Positions 1-23,062 of a DNA stretch of 23,062 bases are shown in pieces (position 1 is the first letter of the stretch; each line of letters starts with the position of its first letter). Position numbers and translations under genes: made by a program. Below the pieces are notes generated by a model. That model worked only from the letters and a program-made list of their open reading frames with translations. It was not told the DNA's origin and searched no databases. The stretch is from a virus, in IMG/VR virus record IMGVR_UViG_3300009146_000042, positions 1 to 23,062 of that record. One strand, given 5' to 3'.

Positions 1-11
1 GGCGGTTTTTT
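1..11 (+). terminator. Right half of an intrinsic terminator split by the window ends
   Basis: Bases 1-9, preceded by the last two bases of the window (23061-23062), form the right arm of an 11-bp stem whose left arm is 23042-23052. T6-T11 give the T-tract of an intrinsic terminator. It would end transcription after the HNH nuclease and just before the small terminase. This half alone means nothing; the pairing exists only if the sequence is circular or permuted. Confidence 0.65.
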
Positions 12-46
12 GAATTTGCACACCGATTCGCATACGGAGGTCTTGT

Positions 47-547
47 ATGCAGCGCACTAGGAAATTGACGCATGTCGGCCCCGAGGCGAAACGGCTCGCC
101 GGGCTCGGTCTCACCCCGCTCGCGATCGCGGAGCGGTTAGGGGTGAATCGATCGACGGTCCAGCGATGGATGGCCGCGGGACACCTGGCCGATACGCGGG
201 AGACACGGACCGGTCAGACCCCGGAGCTCCCGCCCGCGCCGCCGGCGCCGGCCGAGGACGTCCCGGCGCTCGAGTGGGGCGACGCGATGCGCGCGGCCTA
301 TGCGCTCGACCCCACGGATGCGAAGCTCGTCGCGCTCGCCGATCTCGCGCTCGCCGTCGCCCACAGCGCGAAGGAGCTCCCCTCGATCCGGCTCGCCGCG
401 GCCGGCCGCTTCCAATCCCTGGTGAAGCAGCTCGCCTCCCGCATTCGCCCGATGGTCGACGAACGGCCCGCGGTCCCGGTCCCGGCGCCGGCCGCGGTCG
501 CGCGCGTGGATCCGCGGTCGTTATTGAATCCGCCGACGATCCAATAA
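47..547 (+). CDS. Phage terminase small subunit (TerS)
   Basis: A 166-residue protein, the probable DNA-recognition subunit of the packaging motor. Residues about 22-42 form a helix-turn-helix (AIAERLGVNRSTVQRWM), typical of TerS proteins that bind the packaging site. A Pro/Ala-rich linker (about 58-70) and a helical oligomerisation region (about 78-135) follow. The start is fixed by a GGAGG Shine-Dalgarno at 36-40, six bases before the ATG. The stop abuts the ATG of TerL, and an HNH nuclease lies upstream across the window junction, the usual HNH-TerS-TerL order. The first 47 residues are closely matched by the N-terminus of the protein at 21745-22425. Family assignment rests on the HTH plus context, since TerS proteins diverge quickly. 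Confidence 0.85.
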   Translation: MQRTRKLTHVGPEAKRLAGLGLTPLAIAERLGVNRSTVQRWMAAGHLADTRETRTGQTPELPPAPPAPAEDVPALEWGDAMRAAYALDPTDAKLVALADLALAVAHSAKELPSIRLAAAGRFQSLVKQLASRIRPMVDERPAVPVPAPAAVARVDPRSLLNPPTIQ

Positions 548-2167
548 ATGATCCTGACGGTCCCCCTTGATCGGGAACCCTGGCCGACGCTCGGGCCGGC
601 CGTCTGTGATTTCATCGAGCAACATCTCGTGTTCGGTCCGGGTGATCTCCTCGGACAACCCGCGCGCCTCGAGGCCGAAAAGGTCGCGTTTCTCTATCGG
701 ATGTATGAGGTCTATCCGCGCGGCCACCCGATGGCCCTCCGCCGGCGCTTCAAGCGGGTCGGGCTGTCGCTCCGGAAGGGCACCGCGAAAACAGAATTGG
801 CGGCGTGGATCGCGGCGTGTGAGCTGCACCCCGCCGGCCCCGTGCGCGGGATCGGGTGGACGGCCGGCGGCGATCCGATCGGGGGCCCGGTCACCGATCC
901 GTATATCCCGCTCGTCGCGTACACCGAGGAGCAATCCGAGGAGCTCGCGTATACCGCGCTCCGGGTGATTCTCGAACATAGCGCGCTCTGTGACGATTTC
1001 GACATTGGCCTCGAGCGGATCCTCCGCAAGAAGGGCGGCGGGAAAGCGGTCGCGCTCGCCGCGGCGCCGGATGCGCGCGACGGCGCGCGCACGACGTTTC
1101 AACACTTCGACGAAACGCACCGCTTTACGCTCCCGCGCCTCGTCCGCGCGCATCGCACCATGCTGGCGAATATTCCGAAACGCCGCGCGGCGGATGCCTG
1201 GACGCTCGAGACCACCACCGCGCCCGAGCCCGGCACGGGATCGGTCGCCGAAGGCACGATGGATTACGCCCGGGCGGTCGTGACAGGGCAGGTCACAGAC
1301 ACGCGGTTGTTCTACTTTCACCGCGACGCCTCCGAGGGCCACGACCTCGAGACGCCCGAGGGCCTGCGCGCGGCGATTATCGAAGCCTCGGGCGCGACGA
1401 GCGAATGGTCGGACATTGAGGCGATCGCGGCGGCCTGGCAGGACCCCGAGGCCGATCGGGCGTATCTCGAGCGCGTCTGGCTCAATCGGCTCGTGAAGGG
1501 CGGCACCCAGGCGTTCGACGTGCCGCGCTGGTCCGAGCTCGTGCGCGATCGGCCGGTGGCGCCCGGCGATGCGATCACGCTGGGATTTGACGGCGCCATG
1601 TTTCACGACGCGACCGGGATCGTCGCGACGCATATCGCGTCGGGGTATCAATGGGTCGCGGGTCTCTGGGAGTGTCCGCCTGGCCGGGTCGAGTGGCAGG
1701 TCCCGACCGCGGAGGTCGACGCCACGATCCGCGGGTTGTTCAAGGAGTACACCGTCTGGCGGCTCTACGCTGATCCGCCCTACTGGGGCTCGTGGATCGC
1801 CCAGTGGGCCGGCGATCCGGCGCTCGGCGCGGAGAAAGTGATCACCTGGTGGACCAACCGCCGGCGCCCGATGACGTACGCGCTCAAGAATTACCAGACC
1901 GCGATCCTGAGCGGGGACGTCTCCCATAGTGGCGATCCGCGCCTCACGCGGCACCTGGGACACGCGCGCCGCCATGACCTCCCCGGGGTCCGGGATGAAA
2001 CCGGGTCGCCGCTCTGGTTAATTCAGAAGGACCGCCCCGATTCTCCGAATAAAATAGACCTCGCGATGGCGGCGGTCCTGTCCTGGGAAGCGCGGACGGA
2101 TGCGGTCGCCGCCGGGGTCCGCAATAAACCGCCGCGCGTTCAAACGCTGTTTATGGGAGGCCGCTAA
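548..2167 (+). CDS. Phage terminase large subunit (TerL)
   Basis: A 539-residue packaging ATPase/nuclease that drives DNA into the prohead and cuts genome ends. The ATPase domain shows a Walker A-like loop at residues 76-83 (RKGTAKTE) and a Walker B with catalytic acid at 185-189 (HFDE, D188-E189). The C-terminal RNase H-like nuclease shows the expected spaced aspartates: D348 in GFDGAMFHD, D409 in YADPPYW and D504 in KIDLAMA. Length is normal for the family. The ATG directly follows the TerS stop with no spacer, so translation is probably coupled. No damage is seen; all motifs are intact. Confidence 0.95.
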   Translation: MILTVPLDREPWPTLGPAVCDFIEQHLVFGPGDLLGQPARLEAEKVAFLYRMYEVYPRGHPMALRRRFKRVGLSLRKGTAKTELAAWIAACELHPAGPVRGIGWTAGGDPIGGPVTDPYIPLVAYTEEQSEELAYTALRVILEHSALCDDFDIGLERILRKKGGGKAVALAAAPDARDGARTTFQHFDETHRFTLPRLVRAHRTMLANIPKRRAADAWTLETTTAPEPGTGSVAEGTMDYARAVVTGQVTDTRLFYFHRDASEGHDLETPEGLRAAIIEASGATSEWSDIEAIAAAWQDPEADRAYLERVWLNRLVKGGTQAFDVPRWSELVRDRPVAPGDAITLGFDGAMFHDATGIVATHIASGYQWVAGLWECPPGRVEWQVPTAEVDATIRGLFKEYTVWRLYADPPYWGSWIAQWAGDPALGAEKVITWWTNRRRPMTYALKNYQTAILSGDVSHSGDPRLTRHLGHARRHDLPGVRDETGSPLWLIQKDRPDSPNKIDLAMAAVLSWEARTDAVAAGVRNKPPRVQTLFMGGR

Positions 2168-2407: not shown

Positions 2408-4321
2408 GTGGACCGCGCCTATTCCGTCCTCACGATTAAATCGATCGACCAGGCGACGCGCCGGATCCGCGGCATCGCCACGGCGCCGGACACCGACCGC
2501 CAGGGCGACATTCTCGAGCCGCTCGGCGCGCGGTTCGCCGCCGAGATCCCGCTCCTCCTCCATCACAACCAAAAAACCCCGGTCGGCGTCGCGCGCTTGC
2601 AGCCCGCGACCGCGGCGGGGATCGAGTTCGAGGCGGAGCTCCCGACGATTGATGAGCCCGGCGCCGTCCGCGACGAGGTCGAGCGCGCCTGGACCTCGAT
2701 CGTCCATAAGCTGATGCGCGGCGTCTCGATCGGGTTCAAGCCGATCGCGGACGGGGTCGCGCGGCTCAAGGGCGGCGGCCTGCACGTCAAGGCGTTCGAG
2801 ATTTTCGAGCTCTCGCTCGTGACCATCCCCGCGCATCAACGGGCGACCCTCGCGGTCGTCAAGGCGCTCGACACCTCGGCCGCGACAGGCCACACCCACA
2901 CCCCGCCCGGCGTCTCGGGCCTTGCGACGAAACCGAGGCCCCACATGGGCACCAAAGCAACCCCGGGCGAACAGATTCAGAACCTCGAGAACAAGCGCGC
3001 CGCGCTCGCCGCGCGGATGACCGACCTCCTGGAAGCGAGCGCCGACGCCGGCGCGACGCTCGAGGCCGACGCCGCGACCGAGCATGACGGCCTGGCGGCG
3101 CAGGTCAAGAGCATCGACGCCGACCTGCAGCGGTGGCGCGAACACGAGAAGCTCGCGATCGCGACGGCCGCGGCGGTCCCCGGGACCCCCAGCGGGGTCA
3201 AGGTCTACGCGCCCGTCTCGGTCCGGCCGAACGTCCCGCTCGGGACCGCGTTCATCCGCAAAGCCTGCGCGCTGATGGTGTGCCAGGGCAACAAGCACGA
3301 GGCCGCGGAATACGCGAAACGCTGGGACGACTCGACCCCCGAGGTCGCGCTCTCGCTCAAAGCGGCGGTGGCCCCCGGCACGACGACCGATGCGACCTGG
3401 GCGAGCCCGCTGGTCAATCAGACGATGGTCAATGATTTCATCGAGCTGCTGCGCCCGGCGACGGTGCTCGGGAAGATCCCCGGCCTGCGGGAAGTCCCCT
3501 TCAACTGCAAAGTGCCGATGCAGACCGCGGGCGGCGCGTATGGCTGGGTCGGGGAAGCGAAACCCAAGCCGCTCACCAAGCTCGCCTTCGCGTCGGATAC
3601 CCTCGGCGTGACGAAGGTCGCCGGGATCATCGTCCTCACCGAGGAGCTCGTCCGCTTGTCGAACCCGTCCGCCGAGGCCCTGGTCCGGAAGGACATGATC
3701 GCGGGCATCGCGCAATTCCTCGATCAGCAGTTCCTGGATCCCGCGGTGGCCGCGGTGGCCGGCATCAATCCCGCGTCGATCACCAACGGCGCGCCGACCG
3801 CGGCCGCGACCGCGAACCCGCTCGCCGACATCATGGGGCTCATCAATCACTTCGCGACCAACAACATCCCGGTCAACGGCGTGACGTTTGTCCTCTCCTC
3901 GGCGAACGCGCTCGCGCTGTCGTTCCGCTCCAATCTCGACGGCTCGCCCGAGTTCCCCGGGATCGGCATCGCCGGCGGGAGCTATCGCGGGTTGACCTTC
4001 ATCACCTCGAACGTCGCCGGGACCAACGTCGTCGCGCTGCAGCCGGCGTACATCCTCTATGCCGACGAGGGCGGCGTGTCGATCGATGCGTCGCGCGAAG
4101 CCTCGCTGCAGATGGACTCAGCGCCGATGTCGCCCTCGGATGCGACGACCGTGCTGGTCTCGCTGTTCCAAAACAACCTCGTCGCGCTGCGCGCGGAGCG
4201 CTTCTCCAACTGGAAGCGCGTCAACGCCAACGCGGTGAAGTACCTCACGGCGGCCAACTGGCCGGCGCCGACGGGCGCGGCGATGATCGACGACACCGGC
4301 CGCGCGAAGAAGGTCAACTAG
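2408..4321 (+). CDS. Fused HK97-type prohead protease and major capsid protein
   Basis: A 637-residue polyprotein-like fusion. Residues 1-179 are an HK97 (U35-type) prohead protease: likely catalytic H53 in LLLHHNQKTPVG, S107 in MRGVSIGF and acidic E134 in FELSLVTIP. Residues about 185-255 are a charged, coiled-coil segment like the scaffolding delta domain. Residues about 270-637 are the HK97-fold major capsid protein, including a P-loop/A-domain region that ends in a run of conserved capsid-like beta strands. The start is GTG at 2408 with no convincing Shine-Dalgarno. An in-frame ATG at 2945 (residue 180) with GAGG six bases upstream sits exactly at the protease/scaffold border and could make capsid protein alone. 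In most HK97-type phages the two are separate genes; fusions are known but less common. Confidence 0.92.
   Translation: MDRAYSVLTIKSIDQATRRIRGIATAPDTDRQGDILEPLGARFAAEIPLLLHHNQKTPVGVARLQPATAAGIEFEAELPTIDEPGAVRDEVERAWTSIVHKLMRGVSIGFKPIADGVARLKGGGLHVKAFEIFELSLVTIPAHQRATLAVVKALDTSAATGHTHTPPGVSGLATKPRPHMGTKATPGEQIQNLENKRAALAARMTDLLEASADAGATLEADAATEHDGLAAQVKSIDADLQRWREHEKLAIATAAAVPGTPSGVKVYAPVSVRPNVPLGTAFIRKACALMVCQGNKHEAAEYAKRWDDSTPEVALSLKAAVAPGTTTDATWASPLVNQTMVNDFIELLRPATVLGKIPGLREVPFNCKVPMQTAGGAYGWVGEAKPKPLTKLAFASDTLGVTKVAGIIVLTEELVRLSNPSAEALVRKDMIAGIAQFLDQQFLDPAVAAVAGINPASITNGAPTAAATANPLADIMGLINHFATNNIPVNGVTFVLSSANALALSFRSNLDGSPEFPGIGIAGGSYRGLTFITSNVAGTNVVALQPAYILYADEGGVSIDASREASLQMDSAPMSPSDATTVLVSLFQNNLVALRAERFSNWKRVNANAVKYLTAANWPAPTGAAMIDDTGRAKKVN
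2935..2947 (+). promoter_or_regulatory. Possible internal ribosome binding site and capsid start
   Basis: GAGG at 2935-2938 lies six bases before an in-frame ATG at 2945-2947 inside the fused protease-capsid gene. The codons before it encode a His/Thr/Pro-rich linker, and the codons after it begin the coiled-coil delta-like domain, so initiation here would yield a complete capsid precursor without protease. This would provide the required excess of capsid over protease. The evidence is position and motif only. Confidence 0.4.
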
Positions 4322-4421: not shown

Positions 4422-5792
4422 ATGGAGATTAGCCGGCGCGCAGTCCTCAACCTGATGACGAAGGTCTTCGGCCTCGTCGCCGCGCCCGTGCGATCGATGA
4501 GTCGCGGCGGCTGGTGGCCGATCATCCGCGAACCCTTCACCGGCGCCTGGCAGCAGAACCAGGAGATCACCGCCGAAACCTCGCTCACGTATTCGGCCGT
4601 GTTCGCCTGTGTGACGCTCATCGCGAGCGACATCGCGAAGCTCGGCCTCCGCCTGGTCGAGGTCGACGAGTACGGCGTCTGGACCGAGACGACCGCGTCG
4701 GCGTTCTCGCCGGTCCTGCGCCGGCCGAACCGCTACCAGAACCGGATCCAATTCGTCACGCAGTGGATGATCTCCAAACTGATCCACGGCAACACCTACG
4801 TCTTGAAGGAGCGCGACGGGCGCGGCGTCGTGGTCGCCCTCTACGTGCTCGACCCGACGCGCGTCACGGTCCTGGTCTCGCCGGCGGGGGACGTGTTCTA
4901 CGAGCTCAAACGCGACGACCTCGCCGGGCTCCCGACCGACCAGACCGTGGTCGTCCCGGCGCGCGAGATCATTCACGACAAGATGGTCCCGCTGTATCAC
5001 CCCCTGGTCGGCGTCAGTCCGATCCATGCCTGCGGGATCGCCGCGCTCCAGGGCCTCTCGATTCAAAACACGTCCACGGCGTTTTTCCGCAACGGCTCCC
5101 AGCCGAGCGGCATCCTGACGACGCCGCAAGACCTCACCGACGAGCAGGCCGCGGACGTCAAGTCCCGCTGGCAGGCCGGCTATACCGGCGACAACGTCGG
5201 CCAGGTCGCGCTCCTGAGTCACGGCCTGACCTATGAACAGATGGCCGTCAACGCCGCCGACGCGCAACTGATCGAGCAGCTCCAGTGGTCGGCGACGACC
5301 GTCTGTAGCTGCTTTCATATCCAGCCCTACATGATCTCGATCGGGGACCCGCCGCCGTACGCGAACATTGAACCGCTCACGATCCAGTACTACTCGCAGT
5401 GTTTGCAGGAGAAGATCGAGAACCTCGAGCTGTCGCTCGACGAGGGCCTCGAGCTCCCGGCGCCCTACGGGACCGAGTTCAATCTCGACGACCTGATGCG
5501 GATGGATTCGCTGTCGAAGAACCAGGCCGCGTCGACCGCGATCAGTTCCGGCGGCATGACGATCAACGAGGCCCGGAAGAAGTATTACGACCTCGCGCCG
5601 GTCCCCGGCGGGCACACGCCCTACATGCAGCAGCAGTACTGGCCGCTCGATCAGCTCGGGACCCGGCCGCCGCCCGCGGCGCCTACGCTCCCGCCGGCGG
5701 CCGCGGACGAGGACGACGAGGACGCGCCGACGAGCGCGGAGGACCTGATGCGCGCACATGAAAAGGCAATGGTGATCTATGCCGCGGCTTGA
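4422..5792 (+). CDS. Phage portal protein (HK97 family)
   Basis: A 456-residue portal, the dodecameric ring through which TerL pumps DNA and to which the tail attaches. Family features are visible: the N-terminal ITAETSLTYSAVFACVTLIA segment, which opens most HK97-type portals; the middle VSPIHACGIAALQG region; and the SATTVCSCFHIQPYMIS segment near residue 290-310. The C-terminus is low-complexity Pro/Ala/Asp/Glu (about 410-445), common in portals. The ribosome binding site is weak (GGGAG about 4412-4417). The gene lies downstream of the capsid gene rather than upstream, reversing the HK97 portal-protease-capsid order. Its end overlaps the next gene by 14 bases. Confidence 0.93.
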   Translation: MEISRRAVLNLMTKVFGLVAAPVRSMSRGGWWPIIREPFTGAWQQNQEITAETSLTYSAVFACVTLIASDIAKLGLRLVEVDEYGVWTETTASAFSPVLRRPNRYQNRIQFVTQWMISKLIHGNTYVLKERDGRGVVVALYVLDPTRVTVLVSPAGDVFYELKRDDLAGLPTDQTVVVPAREIIHDKMVPLYHPLVGVSPIHACGIAALQGLSIQNTSTAFFRNGSQPSGILTTPQDLTDEQAADVKSRWQAGYTGDNVGQVALLSHGLTYEQMAVNAADAQLIEQLQWSATTVCSCFHIQPYMISIGDPPPYANIEPLTIQYYSQCLQEKIENLELSLDEGLELPAPYGTEFNLDDLMRMDSLSKNQAASTAISSGGMTINEARKKYYDLAPVPGGHTPYMQQQYWPLDQLGTRPPPAAPTLPPAAADEDDEDAPTSAEDLMRAHEKAMVIYAAA

Positions 5793-6207
5793 GGATGTCG
5801 CGACGCTGGTCGGCGTGTCGATGAAAGCCGCGATCGCGCCGGTCCAGGCGGAGGTCGGCTCGATGACCAAAGAGCTCGCCGCGCTCAAGGCGGAGATCGC
5901 GGCGATCCAGGCGCGCGACCGCGCGGCCGTCCCGGGACCCGCTGGCGAACCCGGCCCGCCCGGCGCACCCGGGGCACCTGGCGAACCCGGCCCGCCCGGC
6001 CCGATGGGGAAGTTTGCGGATAGCTACAAGGATGTCTACAGCGCCGAGAGCATGTACGTCGCGGGCGATGTCGTCACCGACGACGGATCGCTCTGGTTGT
6101 GTCGTGCGGCGTCGGCGATTGTCGCGGACCGCCCGGGGACCTCGAGTAATTGGAAATTGATTTGTAAGCGCGGCAAGGACGGCCGCGACGCGAAAGGCCC
6201 TCGGTAA
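5779..6207 (+). CDS. Collagen-like protein with a carbohydrate-binding-like C-terminus
   Basis: A 142-residue three-part protein. Residues about 15-48 are a heptad-like helix that could trimerise. Residues 53-76 are eight Gly-X-Y triplets (GPAGEPGPPGAPGAPGEPGP and on), a collagen triple-helix motif. Residues about 80-132 carry the pattern Y-x-x-GDVV-x-DDGSLW-x-C with a late SSNW, resembling chitin-binding type 5/12 modules. A further short GKDGRD run ends the protein. It overlaps the portal gene by 14 bases and the connector gene by 1, so it belongs to the head operon. A trimeric sugar-binding fibre or decoration on the head or neck is inferred, not shown. Confidence 0.75.
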   Translation: MPRLEDVATLVGVSMKAAIAPVQAEVGSMTKELAALKAEIAAIQARDRAAVPGPAGEPGPPGAPGAPGEPGPPGPMGKFADSYKDVYSAESMYVAGDVVTDDGSLWLCRAASAIVADRPGTSSNWKLICKRGKDGRDAKGPR

Positions 6208-12075: not shown

Positions 12076-15000
12076 ATGATCGGCGGGATCTATTTCGCGG
12101 GCGCGGCGTTCGCGGGCGCGCTGCGGATCGGCCCCGCCGCGGCGAGCCTCGCGGCCTCCGCGGTGATCAGCGTCACCGCGACCGCGACGATCAGCCCGGC
12201 CCCGGCTCGCCTCGAGGCCCAGGCGTCGATCGTCTGGTCCGTGTCCCGCGCGGATCTCTCCGTCCCGATCGACACGACCATCGGGATCTGGATCGGGGCG
12301 GTCCCGGTCACCGGCCGAGTACGGGTCGACGGCCTCACGATTCGCGACATCCTGAACGACGCGCCCAATACCTGTAGCTTTGTCATGGAGGGGGACGGGC
12401 CGGCGGTCGGGCAACGGGTCCGGATCCTGATGGGCGCGCGGCTCCTCTTCTCGGGGTCGGTCCAGACGGTCGATGAATCCTACGAGTCCCGGCCGGACCA
12501 CGTCGCCTGGCAGATCACCGCGATCGACGACACCGGGGAAGCCAACGCGCGCCGGCCCTTCGGGACATTCCTCGAGGTGTCGGCGACGACGATCGCGCAG
12601 TACATCATCGGGACCTTCGCGCCGGCGTTTGCCGCCGGCGTCGAGGCCGGCCTCCCGCCCGTGTCGATCGTGTTCGACGGGTCGGACACCTTCATCGCCT
12701 GTCTCGCGCGCCTCGCGTCGGCCGTCGGCGGCTACTGCAAGATTGAAGACCATACGGTCTACCTGTTTACGGCCGCCGCCGCGGACCCGCCCGCGCCGAT
12801 CGATCCCGATCATCGCTTCCTGTCGCGCCCGCCGATCCAGATGAACACGGACAGTAGCCAGCTCCGGACGCGCGTCTATGGGAAGGGCTACGGCGAAACG
12901 ATCCAGTCCGACCTCGTCGCCGGCGAGACGCTCGTCCCGATCGAAGACGGCGGGCTGTTCTCCCCCCTGGGCGGGCGCGCGATTGCGGCTCGGACCGCCG
13001 ACGGCGGTCAGTCCGAGCCGCTCACCTACACCGGGCTCGTCAGGCGGGGCGGCGGCTCCCTGGTCGGCCCCGGCGCGGCGCCGGCGAACGCGCCGACCCT
13101 CGGCCTCGCGCAAGGCGGCGTCGTGACCAGCGGGTTCCACCAGGTTGCCGTCGTCCACGTCACGGCCGCCGGCAAGTCGCTGGCCGGCCCGCGCGAGGGG
13201 ATCGATGTCAATCCCATCCCGCCGCCCACGGTCGGCCCGATTGCCGGCGCGCCGTTGACCGGCACGGGACCGGATCAGGGGTTCCACTCCTACGTGGTGA
13301 CGTTCCTCATCCTGGGCGGGGAGACGACCGCGGGACCCTGGAACAATGCCGTGGAGACCAGTGCGGCGCTGGGACAGATTGCGGCGCCGGGTCAACCGTC
13401 GCCCGCTGCGCTCCTAGTGGACGGAGTCTTGACCGCGGCGCGGTATGACTACAAATACACCTACGTCAACGCGAATGGCGAAACCGAGGGCGGGTATCAG
13501 GCCCCGGCCTTCAAGCCGGCAGTGCCGGCGATGGGTGTGGTGGGGGATCGGAGTAGCACCACGGGCGGCGCGATGACGCCGGACTGGTATTACAACTATT
13601 TCTTAAGTTTTGTCACCGCGAGCGGCTACGAAACGGCCATCGAGGAACGGTCGCATTACTTGGGGGCCGGCTACAACGCGATCAACGTCTGGATTCCAAC
13701 CAGTCCGGATGCGCGCGTGGTCAAGCGCCGGTTATGGCGCACGGGCGGCTTGTTTCAACCCACATCCACGGACTACGGCAAGGGGTATCTCGTCACGGAG
13801 ATCATGGGCAATAGCAGTAGTGTCCAGTTTAAGGATACGACCGCCAATCTCAGCGCGAATGAGGTGTATTTCAAGCCGGGACACGGCACACCGTCCGGCC
13901 CGCGCGGCACACCGCCGGGGTATCAGGTCCAGGTGAGCGGCATTTCACCGGGGCCGGCCGGCGTCACGGCCCGCCGGATCTATCGAAGCACGGATAACTC
14001 GAGCGCCTTCCATCTCCTGGCGACGCTGAGCAATAACACCACCACGACGTATCAGGACAACATCGCGAACAACGACGCCAACGCGGACATGCCGACGTCG
14101 AACACCACCGGCACCGCGGTGCAGCGGATCCCGGTGAGCGCGATTCCCCTGGGGCCGGCGGGGACGACGGGGCGGAAGCTGTATCGGCGTTTCTACAGTG
14201 AGGCGCCGCGGCTGGTGACGACGATCGCCAACAACACCAGTACGACCTTTACCGACACCGTCCCGAATGCGAACCTGGGCGCGAACCCGCCGTCGACCAA
14301 TACCGCGATCGGCAATCAGATCGCGCTGACGAAGATCCCGACCGGGGCCAGCCAGGTTGTCGCCCGCGAAATCTACATGACGAAGGTCACGGGACCGGGC
14401 AACATGCAACCCTTGCAACGGGTGCTGACCATCCCCGACAACACGACGGTCGAGGCGACGCTCAATATCGCGGACGCCGCGATCACCGGCCCGACCGAGC
14501 CGCTCGAGGACACCAGCGGGCTCGCCCAACCGCAAGGGCAGGTCAACCCCGGATCGCCCACGCTCATCGTCGCCAGCCCCGCGCCGTTTGCCCCGACCGG
14601 CGGCTGGGTGATTACCGGCGGGGGGCAAGTGGTCCGCTATACCAGCATCGTGAATAACCTGCTGAGCGGGATCCCGGTCAGTGGTCCCGGCGCGATTGTT
14701 ACGGCCGTCCTCTTCGGGCAGCAGGCGACCCCGGCGCCGGCGCTGACCGGCGTCACGGGGATCGCGACGCCGATCCAGCGCGGGGCGGCGGTCCATCTCT
14801 GGGTCCAGCGCGACGACCTCCAGGCGCAAGCCGAACATGCCGCGCGCACCGGCGGGGACGGCGTCGTCGAGTTCCTGATCGTCGACGAGCGCCAGAGCTA
14901 CAAGTCGCTCCCCGCCCGCTGTGATTCGGATCTCGCCCTCTTTAGTCGGCCCCTGGTGACGGTCCGCTATGCGACCCGTGACCTCAAGACCAAGTCCGGC

Positions 15001-17360: not shown

Positions 17361-17581
17361 CCACGTCGCCCCCGCGGCGGTCGCCGCGTACCCCGTTAGC
17401 CTCGCCCTGGATCACCGTCCAGGAAGCCGCCGCCTACCTCGGCGTCGGCGTCGATACCATCTATGACGCCTGCGCGAAGCGCGGCTTGAAACACGTCAAG
17501 CTTGGACACGCGACCATTCGCCTGCAGCGGGCGTGGGTCGATGCCTGGGCGGAGCAACACGGCGCCAAGGTGACAACGTAA
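17357..17581 (+). CDS. Excisionase-like helix-turn-helix protein
   Basis: A 74-residue protein with WITVQEAAAYLGVGVDTIYD, then a variable turn, GLKHVKLGHATIRL and a final recognition-wing helix with VDAWAEQHG. This is the MerR-like HTH_17/excisionase pattern. Such proteins bend DNA at the attachment site and steer integrase towards excision, and may also repress transcription. The ATG overlaps the preceding ORF's stop. The integrase follows after one small gene. As no other repressor candidate is found nearby, a dual role is possible (inference). Confidence 0.8.
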   Translation: MTTSPPRRSPRTPLASPWITVQEAAAYLGVGVDTIYDACAKRGLKHVKLGHATIRLQRAWVDAWAEQHGAKVTT

Positions 17582-17598
17582 CCGCTTGGGTTTATACT
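17570..17598 (+). promoter_or_regulatory. Sigma-70-like promoter for the integrase pair
   Basis: GTGACA (17570-17575) and TATACT (17593-17598) are 17 bases apart. The ATG at 17606 lies seven bases after the -10 box, so the predicted transcript begins at or one base before the start codon. No Shine-Dalgarno is present. The promoter overlaps the end of the excisionase gene and would give separate expression of the small gene and the integrase. Confidence 0.65.
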
Positions 17599-17605
17599 GT
17601 GCGGC

Positions 17606-17764
17606 ATGACACCACGCAAGCCAACGAAGAAACACCCCGCGGCGGTCGCGCTCGGCCGTCTCGGGGGCCAAGTTACGTCCCAGAAGAAAGCCGACGCCGC
17701 GCGCAGGAATGGCGCGCTCGGCGGCCGGCCGCGCCTGGTCCCCGCCGAGAAGCCGGCCCGCTGA
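17606..17764 (+). CDS. Small basic protein with LGxLGG and GGRPR motifs
   Basis: A 52-residue, highly basic protein. It runs AVALGRLGGQVTSQKKADAA, then RRNGALGGRPR, a pattern seen in many tiny phage and plasmid proteins that are thought to bind nucleic acid but are not characterised. It would be leaderless from the promoter at 17570-17598. Its TGA overlaps the integrase ATG, so it may serve partly to start translation of the integrase. Confidence 0.6.
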   Translation: MTPRKPTKKHPAAVALGRLGGQVTSQKKADAARRNGALGGRPRLVPAEKPAR

Positions 17765-19257
17765 TGCCGACCCGTACCCCCAGTGGGACCAAGGGCCTGA
17801 TCAAGCGGCACGTCCGCGGCTGTCCGAACGACCGCACGACGCCGACGAAGTGCGGCTGTGAATGGCGCGGGCGCTACAAACGCCAGGAGGTCGGCCTCGC
17901 GAAGTGGGCCGGCGTCACCGTCAACCCCAAGCTGATCGGGCCGGCGCGCGAAGTGTTCGCCCGGATGATCACGGCGATCGACGGCAAGTCCTTCGACCCG
18001 GCCGGCGAGGTCGCCGCGCTCGGGACCGAGCAACGCTTCCATACGCTGATCGATGAATACATCACCAGCCACGTCGACACGGCGGGCCTGGACGGCGCCC
18101 CGCTCACGTCGACCGGCCTCCGCTCGAGCCTCAAAGTGATCCAGACCGTCGCGGCCGGCGGGACCGTGCTCGGGATGCTCACGCTCGAGGCGCTCGTCGC
18201 GACGCCGGCGCGGATCCAAAACTGGCTGAACGCCGCCCAGAAGGATCGCGCCTGGAAGGCCAAGACCTGGCGCTACTACTACGGCAACCTCTACGCGATC
18301 TGCGAATGGGCGACGATGCGGAAGACCAACGGCGTCCCGCGCATGGTCCGCAATCCGATGAAGGAGATCACGCCCCCGACGCTCGGGAAGTACGAGCAGC
18401 TCGGGCGCATTTACGAGGACCTCGAGGACCGGTTGTTCGCCGCGCTCGAGACGCTGAACGCCCCCTTGCACGTCCCGAACGGGCGCGCCAAACTCGACCA
18501 GGCGCAGGCCGACGCGATTCGCGCCGAGGTCGCCGCGGGCACCGCACAAAAGGACGTCGCGGCGACGTTCGGGATCTCGCCGGCGGTCGTCTGTGCCATC
18601 GTTGCCGGGACGATCTGGAGCCCCGAGAAATACACCCCGAGCACCAAGGGCGACGAGATGCGGCGGCGCCTCATCGCCTCGATCGACGGCGGCCTCCGCG
18701 CCGGCGAGCTCATGGGGATCCAGCTCAAGATGGTCGACTACCGGCAACCGTTCAAGACCGCCGACGGGGGCAAGGGCTACGTGATCACGCTCCCGCCCGA
18801 GGTCTGCAAGGGCGGCAAGACCACCGGCAAGTCTGAACAGGTCTACGCCGGCTCGCCGCGGTTTGTCGCGATGCTCGAGGCCCGCCGCGACCAGCTAATC
18901 CGGCTGTATGAGCGGCGGCGGTTGCAGTTCAAAACTGATAAGCGTAACGTCGGCGACGCGTACCTCTTCGGGACCGAGGACGGGCGCCCGCAAAAATCCT
19001 TCCGGCGCCAGTACCGCAAGCTCTACGAGGCCGCGGGCCTGGTCTACGGCGTCGACTACGGGCGCGACCTCGGGCTCGTCTGGCATACGACCCGCCATGA
19101 ATACTGCTCGCGGATTGGCGAGCAAAGCGGCGGCGATGTTCGGCTGATTAAGAAGGCGGGCCGATTCAAGAACCTGAAGACGGCCGAGATTTATACCCAC
19201 TTGCGCGATCGGGACATGGAAGCGATCGCCGGCGTGGTGAATCGGAGGCGGGCGTGA
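17764..19257 (+). CDS. Tyrosine integrase with an inserted helix-turn-helix
   Basis: A 497-residue site-specific recombinase that would integrate the phage at a tRNA-Pro gene. Residues 1-45 carry a Cys-containing arm-binding-like start (HVRGCP, KCGCEWRGRYKR). Residues about 95-215 are the core-binding domain. The catalytic domain has R312 (GGLRAGELMG), H441 and R444 (WHTTRH) and nucleophile Y477 (AEIYTHL). The residue that is usually His before the Tyr box is R467 (AGRF). Residues about 243-285 (AEVAAGTAQKDVAATFGISP in the middle, ending AGTIW) form an HTH of the kind seen in phage nucleases, inserted before the first catalytic helix. The start is the ATG overlapping the preceding TGA; an upstream open stretch is not used. 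Confidence 0.9.
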   Translation: MPTRTPSGTKGLIKRHVRGCPNDRTTPTKCGCEWRGRYKRQEVGLAKWAGVTVNPKLIGPAREVFARMITAIDGKSFDPAGEVAALGTEQRFHTLIDEYITSHVDTAGLDGAPLTSTGLRSSLKVIQTVAAGGTVLGMLTLEALVATPARIQNWLNAAQKDRAWKAKTWRYYYGNLYAICEWATMRKTNGVPRMVRNPMKEITPPTLGKYEQLGRIYEDLEDRLFAALETLNAPLHVPNGRAKLDQAQADAIRAEVAAGTAQKDVAATFGISPAVVCAIVAGTIWSPEKYTPSTKGDEMRRRLIASIDGGLRAGELMGIQLKMVDYRQPFKTADGGKGYVITLPPEVCKGGKTTGKSEQVYAGSPRFVAMLEARRDQLIRLYERRRLQFKTDKRNVGDAYLFGTEDGRPQKSFRRQYRKLYEAAGLVYGVDYGRDLGLVWHTTRHEYCSRIGEQSGGDVRLIKKAGRFKNLKTAEIYTHLRDRDMEAIAGVVNRRRA

Positions 19258-20180: not shown

Positions 20181-20621
20181 ATGCCCTGGATCAAACTCGC
20201 CGACAACGCCCCGCGGCATCCGAAGGTCGCGGCGCTCTCCGATCGCGCGTTTCGCGTGTGGATTCAATCGCTGTGCTATGCGGCGGAATTTCTCACGGAT
20301 GGGGTCCTCCCGTGGGCGTATCTCGATCAGGTCCCGGCCCGGGTCCATGACGAGCTGATCGGCGGCGGCCTGTGGCGCAATGACGGCCCCCGGATCCGGA
20401 TTCACGACTACCTGGCGCACCAGACGAGCAAGGCGATGGTCGAGGCGGAACGCCAACGCAATCTCGCCCGGCGTACCGGCGGTGTACCGGCGGTGTACCG
20501 GCGGGGTACCGGCAAAAAACCGCGACCAGAAGATAGAAGTACAGAAGTTTCTTCATCTCCCCCCGTACGCCCCCCCGCTAAAACCGCCGAGAACCTCGGC
20601 GACGGAACGGACCCGCAATGA
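20181..20621 (+). CDS. Replication initiator-like protein (lambda O / DnaD-type N-domain)
   Basis: A 146-residue protein. It begins WIKLADNAPRHPKVAALSDR, followed by AFRVWIQSLCYAAEFLTDGV and a DELIGGGLWRNDGPRIRIHD winged-helix-like part, the pattern of phage replisome-organiser/initiator N-terminal domains. The C-terminal 50 residues are low complexity and Pro/Lys-rich, with no helicase-loader domain, so it is short compared with many initiators. An 11-bp iteron array (20473-20513) lies inside it. It is followed in an ATGATGA overlap by RusA. The ribosome binding site is weak. Assignment to replication rests on sequence pattern and the iterons. Confidence 0.7.
   Translation: MPWIKLADNAPRHPKVAALSDRAFRVWIQSLCYAAEFLTDGVLPWAYLDQVPARVHDELIGGGLWRNDGPRIRIHDYLAHQTSKAMVEAERQRNLARRTGGVPAVYRRGTGKKPRPEDRSTEVSSSPPVRPPAKTAENLGDGTDPQ
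20473..20565 (+). other. ori: Candidate replication origin: 11-bp iterons plus A/T-rich tract
   Basis: GTACCGGCGGT occurs at 20473-20483 and 20484-20494, GTACCGGCGGG at 20495-20505, and a partial GTACCGGC at 20506-20513, in exact 11-bp phase. An A-rich, then T/C-rich segment (20514-20565) follows, a possible unwinding element. As 11 is not a multiple of three, the repeats are read in different frames, so DNA rather than protein is being conserved. Lambda's origin likewise lies inside its O gene as iterons plus an A/T-rich segment. Confidence 0.6.
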
Positions 20622-21034
20622 TGGCGACCACGCCCGCGATCGTCGCGCCGGTGCAATTCGTCGTCGACGGCCCGCCGGCGGTGAAGGGCTCAACCTTTAG
20701 TTTTTTCTACCGCGGCCGCATCGTGACGAAGCAGGACGCGAAGAACCTCACGTCCTGGGCGGCGCAGGTCGCCTGGTGCGCGCGCGAGGCCGGCGTCCCG
20801 CTGATCCCCAAGGGCGTCGGCGTGATTGTGTCGGTCGTGTATGAGTTCGCACCGCCGATCCGCCTGGTGCGATCGTCGCCTTGCACCCGGCCAGACATCG
20901 ACAAGCTGGCGCGCGCGCTGCTGGATGCGCTGACGGGCGTCGCCTACGAGGACGATGGCCAGGTCGTCGCGCTCACGGTTCGCAAGATGTACGGGACCGA
21001 CACGCGGACGCGCGTTTGGGTGGACCGCGCATGA
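20618..21034 (+). CDS. rusA: RusA-family Holliday junction resolvase
   Basis: A 138-residue endonuclease that would resolve recombination or replication intermediates before packaging. The N-terminal strand pattern FVVDGPPAVKGSTFSFFYRG is typical of RusA. The metal-binding acids lie in RPDIDKLARALLDALTG (D93, D95) and YEDDGQVV (D112/D113). A basic strand (RKMYG) and a RVWVDRA end complete the fold. Length is close to the family norm. Its start overlaps the initiator stop and its own stop overlaps the next ATG, so the three genes are coupled. Confidence 0.9.
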   Translation: MMATTPAIVAPVQFVVDGPPAVKGSTFSFFYRGRIVTKQDAKNLTSWAAQVAWCAREAGVPLIPKGVGVIVSVVYEFAPPIRLVRSSPCTRPDIDKLARALLDALTGVAYEDDGQVVALTVRKMYGTDTRTRVWVDRA

Positions 21035-21258: not shown

Positions 21259-21434
21259 GCGCGGCGCGCTGGCGGTCGTGGGTCTGCGTTCTGATCAACG
21301 GGGAGCACGAGCTCTATCGCGCCTGGTGCGCCGATCGCGTGTTTCAACGCTGCGTACGCTGCGGGCATGAGACGCACGGCTGGGACGTCACGCCGGCGCT
21401 TCGGTTTCGATCGACGTGGATGAGGGGACGATAA
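21255..21434 (+). CDS. Small CxxC zinc-site protein
   Basis: A 59-residue protein starting ATGA over the previous stop. It contains ELYRAWCADRVFQRCVRCGH, with a CVRC pair and nearby Cys/His (ETHGWDV), like small zinc-binding phage or bacterial proteins with RCVRCGxExxGW. Trp/Arg-rich ends suggest nucleic-acid or membrane contact. The short length, coupling and motif support a real gene. Function unknown. Confidence 0.5.
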   Translation: MSAARWRSWVCVLINGEHELYRAWCADRVFQRCVRCGHETHGWDVTPALRFRSTWMRGR

Positions 21435-21436
21435 AA

Positions 21437-21748
21437 ATGGCCAAACAGACACTACCTGAAGCACTAGAGGACGCCGCACTAGCGGGCGCGCAGGAGATTA
21501 AGGAATTTCTCGGAACCTATCGGGGCAAAGACCCGGATCGTCTCAAGCGGGTCCAGATTGCCGTCGGCGCGGTGAGTGGCTATACACGCTGGCGCGCCAG
21601 TCAAAACAACATGATCAGCATGATGCTGATCGTATTTCGGCAAAGCGGTGTAGGTCCAGACCAGACGATTGAAATGGCGAAGGCGGCCGGGCTCCTCCCG
21701 GAGGACTTCACCGCTAAAGCGCTTGACCCTGTAAAGGTCGCGAAATGA
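21437..21748 (+). CDS. Helical protein of unknown function
   Basis: A 103-residue, mostly helical protein. The ATG at 21437 is chosen because GAGGGGA (21422-21428) lies at good spacing; the in-frame ATG at 21416 would lack a Shine-Dalgarno. It runs EDAALAGAQEIKEFLGTYRG, then RLKRVQIAVGAVSGYTRWRA, and a C-terminal helix EMAKAAGLL. The codons (many CTA, ACA, GCA) differ from the GC-rich phage norm. It overlaps the TerS-like zinc protein by four bases, so the two were probably acquired and act together. Confidence 0.6.
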   Translation: MAKQTLPEALEDAALAGAQEIKEFLGTYRGKDPDRLKRVQIAVGAVSGYTRWRASQNNMISMMLIVFRQSGVGPDQTIEMAKAAGLLPEDFTAKALDPVKVAK

Positions 21749-22425
21749 CGCGCACCCGTAAATTGCACCTCGCGCCAATGGCCCAACAGCTCGCCTTAAG
21801 CGGCCTCTCCGTGTCGGCGATTGCGGCACAGTTAGGTGTCAATCACTCGACGATCTGGCGATGGATGATCACCGGTCGGGTGGATGATAGGCGCGCGCGA
21901 TCTAAGGTTCCAGTGATTGTCGGCGCCATGCGTGTAGGTCCTGGATCTATATGCAAGTGTGGGGCATTCAAGTCGCCGCGGGCGCCCCTCTGCCGCGTGT
22001 GTTACTGCGCCGACCGACGCTCGTACTGGAACTTTAACTGTGCATGTGGCGGGCGAAAGTCAAAGAATGCCGCGCGCTGTCAATCGTGCGCGTGGCGTCG
22101 ACTCCGGAAGCTACAAACCTGCGAGTGGTGTCGCGAATCCTTTTGGAGGCCACTAAGGCAGGCCGAGACCGACGCACGGAGATATTGTTCCAAGCGGTGT
22201 TATGGCTACGCTAAATCGATCTATGGGGTCAGCCCGTCCGCCCGCGCAGAGTTAGCCGCGCTCCCCGTGATGTCCCGAGAATCCAGAAACCAACTCACTG
22301 AATTGCTGGCGCTCCGTCGTGAAGCGAAACGCCGGCTCAGGGGCGGGTCTACTGACGACGGCACGGTATGGGCGGATCCTATACCAACAGGGGAGGGGCC
22401 GCCCCCCTTCCGAATGAGCGCATGA
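21745..22425 (+). CDS. TerS-like HTH fused to three zinc ribbons
   Basis: A 226-residue protein. Its first 46 residues (with AIAAQLGVNHSTIWRWM) match those of the small terminase at 47-547 at 25 positions with one gap. The rest is different: three successive zinc ribbons, C70/C72/C83/C86, C99/C101/C112/C115 and C126/C129/C148/C152 (the last in RRYCSKRCYG, like fingers in phage HNH proteins), then a basic helical tail (LTELLALRREAKRRLRG). No HNH catalytic residues are seen. It may bind the same DNA site as TerS and act as a regulator, competitor or packaging cofactor; this is inference. Base composition is less GC-rich than that of its neighbours. ATG overlaps the preceding stop. Confidence 0.75.
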   Translation: MTRTRKLHLAPMAQQLALSGLSVSAIAAQLGVNHSTIWRWMITGRVDDRRARSKVPVIVGAMRVGPGSICKCGAFKSPRAPLCRVCYCADRRSYWNFNCACGGRKSKNAARCQSCAWRRLRKLQTCEWCRESFWRPLRQAETDARRYCSKRCYGYAKSIYGVSPSARAELAALPVMSRESRNQLTELLALRREAKRRLRGGSTDDGTVWADPIPTGEGPPPFRMSA

Positions 22426-22431
22426 TAGGCC

Positions 22432-22662
22432 GTGTCTCTGCGCCTGGCGCTCGTCGTCGCCCTGGTGGCGCTCGTCTCGAGCTGTGCGGCCAAGGCCGTC
22501 TGGCTCGATGGGACGGCGCTCGTCGTCGAGGACTACGCAAGCGCGCGTGTTCGGTTGTATCGGGCGGGGGTGCATTGCCGGCTCGAGGTGATCACGCTCA
22601 CCGAAACGGTAGTCACCCTGCCGACCCGGTGCGTCTCGGTCCCCCGTCGCGCGACACCATGA
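22432..22662 (+). CDS. Putative small lipoprotein
   Basis: A 76-residue protein from a GTG. Its start SLRLALVVALVALVSSC is a signal peptide with lipobox VSSC (lipidated C18), followed by a short mature strand-rich domain with two further cysteines (HCRLE, TRCVS). This implies export and anchoring in an envelope membrane. Phage lipoproteins include Rz1 spanins and superinfection exclusion proteins. It lacks the proline-rich Rz1 pattern, and no Rz-like partner is seen, so exclusion or another surface role is equally possible. Confidence 0.6.
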   Translation: MSLRLALVVALVALVSSCAAKAVWLDGTALVVEDYASARVRLYRAGVHCRLEVITLTETVVTLPTRCVSVPRRATP

Positions 22663-22692: not shown

Positions 22693-23031
22693 ATGTCTAG
22701 CGCGGCGCGGCGCCCCTGTCTCGAGCCGAGGTGTCCCGCCCTGGCGGGGGAGGGGGAGACCCGCTGCGCCGTCCACCGTCGGGACCCTCGTCCCTCGAGG
22801 ACCGCCCGCGGGTACGATGAGGACTGGCAACGCTTGCGCTTCTGGTTCATGCAGCAACCCGAGAACCAACTGTGCCGACATTGTCACGATCGCGGCCTCG
22901 TGATCCTCGCGACTGATGTCGATCACATCATTCCGTTTCGATCGCTCGACGATCCGCGACGACTCGATCGGAAAAACTTGCAGCCGTTGTGCTCGCGCTG
23001 TCACGGTTTGAAAACACGTCGGGGGGGGTAG
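22693..23031 (+). CDS. HNH endonuclease of the packaging module
   Basis: A 112-residue nuclease. The N-terminus has a possible extra zinc site (C9, C14, C25, H28). Residues 61-109 form the HNH fold: C61/C64 (CRHC) and C100/C103 (CSRC) bind the structural zinc, and DVDHIIPF (H78), N95 in RKNLQPL and H104 in RCHGLKT make the active site. HNH proteins next to TerS are needed in several HK97-type phages for cos cutting with terminase. Read circularly, TerS begins 77 bases after it. The 3' end is followed by the split terminator. Confidence 0.88.
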   Translation: MSSAARRPCLEPRCPALAGEGETRCAVHRRDPRPSRTARGYDEDWQRLRFWFMQQPENQLCRHCHDRGLVILATDVDHIIPFRSLDDPRRLDRKNLQPLCSRCHGLKTRRGG

Positions 23032-23041
23032 GAAAATGTTC

Positions 23042-23062
23042 AAAACCGTCGTGCTTCCAAAC
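23042..23062 (+). terminator. Left half of the intrinsic terminator that spans the window ends
   Basis: AAAACCGTCGT (23042-23052), loop GCTTCCAA (23053-23060), then the last two bases plus bases 1-9 give ACGGCGGTTTT. This makes an 11-bp stem with one G-T wobble, followed by two more T's. It lies eleven bases after the HNH stop, where a terminator is expected, which supports joining the two window ends. Confidence 0.65.

Follow-up and report, generated by a model that had tools for sequence, protein, structure and literature searches.

What does a phage protein do that begins like a small terminase (TerS) and continues as an array of zinc ribbons? We addressed this question for a 226-aa protein encoded on the plus strand at 21745..22425 of an IMG/VR virus record from a soil phage, the 23,062 bases of which are referred to here as the window. 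The protein is composed of a TerS-type HTH, three Cys4 ribbons, and a basic C-terminal helix, with Lys and Arg making up 18.6% of its entire length. Residues 1-54 (21745..21906, +) form the HTH domain, homologous to the TerS N-terminus, for which the structural model predicts helices at residues 9-18, 23-30, and 34-43. The first two ribbons are of the CxC/CxxC kind and occupy residues 70-86 (CKC..CRVC; 21952..22002, +) and 99-115 (CAC..CQSC; 22039..22089, +), and the third, at residues 126-152 (CEWC..CSKRC, CxxC/CxxxC; 22120..22200, +), is of the treble-clef type. The conserved C-terminal helix was placed at residues 177-199 by a tail profile (22273..22341, +) and spans residues 178-199 in the predicted model. 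This arrangement bears out a sequence-only reading of the same DNA, which had described three zinc ribbons and a basic tail.

To define the relationship of the HTH to TerS, we compared the 226-aa protein with the product of 47..547 (+). The latter has no strong family match of its own and is labeled TerS because it lies directly before the large terminase (TerL; 548..2167, +; phrog_9, E 6e-69) and is conserved with that terminase in relatives. BLASTP aligned the two proteins from the first Met of both to residue 51, with 28 of 51 identities (55%), one gap, and an E of 9e-13, in agreement with the 25 identities previously counted in the N-terminal 46 residues; a search of the whole record with either protein returned this pair only. 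A profile of the TerS N-terminus, built from relatives with the 226-aa protein left out, was scanned over 18,422 stop-to-stop frames (235 loci, 1.42 Mb) and scored the 226-aa protein at 57.9 bits (E 6e-16), after the TerS proteins and above all non-TerS frames, the best of which reached 28 bits and came from loci chosen for carrying the same HTH pattern. The generic Pfam HTH_23 model gives the protein 30.5 bits. When the HTH was used as a search pattern, TerS proteins were the only matches in viral contigs, whereas genomes gave weak matches to unrelated HTHs. In a maximum-likelihood tree of 58 columns, in which the 226-aa protein sits on a long branch (1.13), the HTH falls inside a clade of eight that includes the window's TerS and its nearest relatives, with support of 96/97. 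Based on the profile scan and the tree, we rejected the possibility that the shared N-terminus is a generic HTH, and the TerS specificity proposed for it from the sequence holds.

The base composition of the gene bears on when this domain was acquired. The GC content of the HTH part (0.61) equals that of the rest of the zinc gene (0.60) and differs from that of TerS (0.72), so recent copying from the resident terS is improbable; the domain was probably captured longer ago from a TerS of the window's lineage, or it came along with the gene. The TerS scaffold is retained in the HTH, as are most positions of the recognition helix (S35, T36, R39, and W40), which reads NHSTIWRW in the 226-aa protein versus N/D-R-ST-V/I-Q/H-RW in the TerS proteins of the clade. 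Position 34 is His in the 226-aa protein and Arg in all clade TerS, while position 38 is Trp rather than Gln or His. Because these two positions differ from every TerS in the clade, the DNA target may have changed, and the HTH may recognize the TerS site itself, an altered form of it, or another site. The 226-aa protein might compete with TerS.

The window holds a further HTH of note. Within the tyrosine integrase (17533-19257, 574 aa), residues 316-360 form an internal HTH (phrog_517, E 5e-6) that precedes the catalytic part and looks like an inserted DNA-reading module; a similar HTH occurs in locus L029 at 13388-13579 (-), with 43% identity over 49 aa.

Beyond residue ~54 the 226-aa protein shows no similarity to TerS, and residues 55-226 align with a family of zinc-ribbon proteins whose genes are linked to a conserved partner gene. 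This partner, up110, lies at 21416..21748 (+), with a possible ATG start at 21437, and its stop and the start of the zinc gene share 4 bases, an overlap that recurs in many contigs. Relatives of the partner gene were found in 16 further phage contigs and in no genome contig, GenBank phage, or plasmid. The next gene encodes a zinc-ribbon protein in 14 of these 16 contigs, or 15 of 17 with the window included, and an Arg-rich protein takes its place in L125 and L140. The Arg-rich proteins (914-1333 and 237-842, respectively) contain RxYRxxNRxR-like repeats and may represent a second kind of DNA-binding partner.

The partner has a mean column identity of 77%, and the zinc proteins vary widely, with eight aligned members sharing 28–40% identity with the 226-aa protein. 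Their length and N-terminus are highly variable, they contain 2 to 5 Cys4 units, and a conserved helix, ERNxLAELIALVRAAxRRI, closes their C-terminus. The 226-aa protein has this family signature (ExRNxLxELxAL..A.RRI), matching the tail profile with an E of 0.0028, and over the ORF set the profile matched only family members and the 226-aa protein. The alignment and a profile scan found the TerS-type HTH in no other partner-linked zinc protein, indicating that a zinc protein acquired the HTH. The sequence-only reading was thus right that the fusion is real and specific, and had its direction the wrong way round: it supposed a TerS that kept its packaging-site reader and swapped the rest, whereas everything after residue 54 belongs to a separate partner-linked zinc family that lacks the HTH elsewhere.

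The same reading knew of no described example of such a fusion, and our searches of viral contigs and phage records likewise yielded no further protein joining a TerS HTH to zinc ribbons and no close full-length relative of this one. A text search covering part of the literature found no published description of a fusion between TerS and either zinc ribbons or a homing endonuclease. One locus, L225, hints at a second capture of an N-terminus between TerS and a zinc protein. There, a divergent partner, a zinc protein, and a P27 TerS are encoded consecutively (75-1333), and the zinc protein and the adjacent TerS both begin with PRGGxRPGAGRKKK. This motif is common, and the codons of the shared stretch differ between the two genes.

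The partner itself is modeled as a long helical hairpin (mean pLDDT 77), and this predicted shape would fit an oligomerizing or adaptor role. Foldseek returned no significant match for the model of either the partner or the 226-aa protein, and VIA-align of the models produced ordinary HTH, treble-clef, and hairpin matches only.

The zinc part of the family matches the HNH PHROGs phrog_1271 and phrog_15471, with the matches stopping before the HNH domain; the 226-aa protein itself matches phrog_8446 weakly (E 0.003). Neither Pfam nor PHROGs detected an HNH domain in the 226-aa protein, and the CapR/DUF723 zinc finger is absent among its Pfam matches up to an E of 1 (Pfam only). The HNH endonuclease encoded nearby (22693..23031, +; phrog_144), of the type that adjoins phage terminases and with relatives in the same slot, is a separate gene. 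Between the two lies a small ORF with a hydrophobic N-terminus (22432..22662, +), whose translation contains no HNH remnant. A true zinc-HNH nuclease of 346 aa occupies the same genomic slot in L043 (4515-5555) and is 34% identical to the 226-aa protein over 98 residues, and L044 encodes a single protein with a different HTH, zinc ribbons, and an HNH domain.

The genomic setting places this gene beside the packaging start. Contigs of related phages begin at a near-identical point, 33–63 bases upstream of terS, and on the right the window, G004, G009, and G012 all terminate in ..AAAC. In L017, window-type ends are joined via ~9 more bases (CCAAAC-CTTCAGGTA-GGCTGATTTTT). The window's termini look like cos ends, and the shared end positions together with this junction indicate that the record probably covers a linear genome almost in full. 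The 226-aa protein gene lies ~0.6 kb from the right cos end (23032..23062, +; ...CTTCCAAAC), in the order RusA (20618-21034), partner, zinc gene, small ORF, HNH, and cos, followed by TerS and TerL. The left cos end and TerS leader (1..46, +) contain two copies of RWTTYGCA, at 13-20 and 25-32, spaced 12 bases apart and without further copies in the window. In the left ends listed, 11 relatives retain a TGCA at offset 17, counted from the cos end; a further TGCA, 11–19 bases on, occurs mainly in phages close to the window. These repeats are plausible candidates for TerS/cosB iterons, as a site picked post hoc.

Other features of these genomes deserve mention. A single 637-aa ORF at 2408-4321 appears to fuse the protease to the major capsid protein, matching phrog_617 over its full length and phrog_80 on residues 8-158, and a protein of the structural region (5779-6207) contains a collagen-like GPP/GAP repeat (PGPAGEPGPPGAPGAPGEPGPPGPMG). 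One clade (L178, L182-L184, L187-L192, L201, L215, and contigs that begin 29 bases upstream of terL) has no recognizable P27-type TerS, its TerL following directly on the HNH gene or on accessory genes located at cos.

The two genes are distributed sporadically. They are absent from the examined right ends or upstream regions of the close relatives G004, G008, G009, G010, and G012, occur in the more distantly related G011 (L022), and are found again in phages with a quite different TerL and no window-type TerS; their core function is therefore independent of TerS. Their side relative to the HNH gene varies among phages, and their GC3 is 0.62–0.65 versus 0.71–0.92 in seven other genes of the window. 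Sporadic presence, variable side, and low GC3 together indicate that the pair behaves as a mobile accessory cassette near cos. We found no description of a two-gene cassette with this conserved, unannotated partner at the cos end of several phage groups. According to a published survey, homing-type endonucleases have a hot spot upstream of terminases (PMC10448857).

The explanation that we tentatively prefer, at somewhat less than an even chance, is that the 226-aa protein is a nuclease-less, homing-endonuclease-like DNA-binding protein that has been retargeted by a TerS-type HTH and occupies DNA near cos. The protein would correspond to the DNA-binding half of a zinc-ribbon HNH homing-type endonuclease minus the nuclease, and its gene to the second gene of a mobile cassette beside the cos end, the HTH having been gained at the N-terminus of the zinc protein in the window's phage lineage. 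It would bind DNA of the cos/terminase region, with the HTH setting the site and the zinc ribbons lengthening the contact. Since it has no nuclease, it would act by binding only, sitting on DNA without cutting, and the helical partner could serve as an oligomerizing or effector subunit. Double-strand cleavage and homing into alleles that lack the cassette would not be expected of such a protein. As a result, terminase action or late transcription might be tuned or blocked, either in the phage's own genome or in that of a rival or satellite with the same TerS type.

The location of the cassette also invites a reading that leaves packaging uninvolved, in which the protein would activate or repress late transcription from an operator upstream of the terminase operon. 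Late regulators are usually encoded in a stretch such as the one that separates the replication/RusA region from the packaging genes; the cassette follows RusA and precedes the HNH and terminase genes in the window and in L131, and in L017 and L108 the stretch is occupied by small ORFs that, by eye, look like HTH or winged-helix proteins. In addition, one relative of homing endonucleases, the zinc-finger protein CapR, is a repressor of capsid genes (PMC10448857). However, the PHROGs search revealed no similarity to known late-regulator families, the cassette stands on either side of the HNH gene depending on the phage, and close relatives without the cassette must still express their late genes. 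We consider a dedicated late regulator unlikely.

The zinc array common to the 226-aa protein and the zinc-HNH nucleases, the sporadic presence and deviating GC3 of the cassette, and its position in a hot spot for homing-type nucleases (PMC10448857) would also be compatible with a selfish remnant, that is, a decayed free-standing HNH homing endonuclease and a hitch-hiking neighbor that are of no use to the phage. Yet the HNH domain is missing family-wide, from the 14 inventoried members as well as from L225, while the ribbons, tail, and partner remain intact and in frame. Moreover, the partner is conserved beyond what is expected of a dead gene, and the gain of a new HTH is unexpected for a fresh remnant. 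Decay of this kind seems to us an improbable account of the family.

A third possibility is that the partner and the zinc protein together constitute an unusual two-gene small terminase, carried in the window beside a classical TerS. In G053, G054, G056, G057, and G058 the pair occupies the usual TerS slot immediately upstream of cos/terL, and these five records yielded no P27-type TerS. A further scan gave 55 TerL relatives; among those whose sequence extends upstream, L192, L201, and L215, which lack the cassette, also run from HNH to terL without a TerS between. The absence of TerS is therefore a trait of the TerL clade and not of the cassette, which weakens the case for the pair as a TerS replacement. 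The partner profile likewise shows no similarity to TerS, and we regard this reading as very unlikely. Finally, an inhibitor that acts like YacG on DNA gyrase or on a different host protein, with the treble-clef ribbon binding protein and DNA binding secondary, is suggested by the modeled resemblance of ribbon 3 to gyrase-bound YacG (4tma; Z 4.0, weak, over 43 residues, rmsd 3.4), but middling Z values are frequent for folds this small, the treble clef is widespread in HNH nucleases, and the HTH and remaining ribbons are left unexplained, so that we give it almost no credence.

The DNA-occupancy explanation can be extended from the one protein to the whole cassette, an idea that we offer as speculation and consider unlikely. 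The cassette would then be a retargetable, nuclease-free DNA-occupancy system in which a conserved effector works with a rapidly changing zinc-ribbon reader that captures DNA-reading domains, such as the TerS HTH and possibly the basic N-terminus of the P27 TerS of L225, so as to sit on packaging-start sites and interfere with the packaging of rivals or satellites.

Among the most similar known proteins are the phrog_1271 zinc-HNH nucleases, exemplified by L043, which share a homologous ribbon array and the same position upstream of terminase. These nucleases have an HNH domain and a GGxGSGG/GRL-type N-terminus, where the 226-aa protein has the TerS HTH and no HNH. The phage's own TerS shares the N-terminal HTH with the 226-aa protein but continues into a helical second half and lies directly before terL, whereas the 226-aa protein continues into zinc ribbons and lies at the record's other end.

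Among described systems, CapR is a nuclease-less zinc-finger relative of T5orf172 homing endonucleases that represses helper-phage capsid genes (PMC10448857). CapR of the PLE satellites and the 226-aa protein are both homing-endonuclease-related zinc proteins of the DNA-binding type with no nuclease; CapR acts by occupying DNA, and occupancy is what we propose here for the latter. The CapR domains group with T5orf172 (GIY-YIG) nucleases and the 226-aa protein with zinc-ribbon HNH nucleases; furthermore, CapR is satellite-encoded and lacks the TerS HTH, whereas the 226-aa protein is phage-encoded and has it. We know of no partner gene for CapR. Odn of ICP1 carries the RepA_N domain of a satellite on a T5orf172 nuclease aimed at the satellite origin (PMC10448857, PMC8263062). 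As in the 226-aa protein, a homing-endonuclease-type protein has acquired another protein's site-reading domain, but Odn, redirected to the DNA site of the RepA_N protein, keeps its nuclease and cuts the satellite origin, while the 226-aa protein has the TerS HTH and no nuclease. I-TevI, a GIY-YIG homing endonuclease with a reported second role in transcriptional repression (PMC10448857), resembles the 226-aa protein in combining an HTH with a zinc finger in a homing-nuclease-type protein, and differs in being an active nuclease of another class with another domain order. By analogy, CapR and Odn may be taken as precedents for the loss of cutting and the capture of a DNA-reading domain, respectively. 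The fusion described here would extend domain capture between packaging machinery and homing-endonuclease-like genes to the packaging initiator, in parallel with replication origins (Odn) and capsid promoters (CapR), and if its HTH still reads the TerS site, the 226-aa protein would be a natural TerS competitor.
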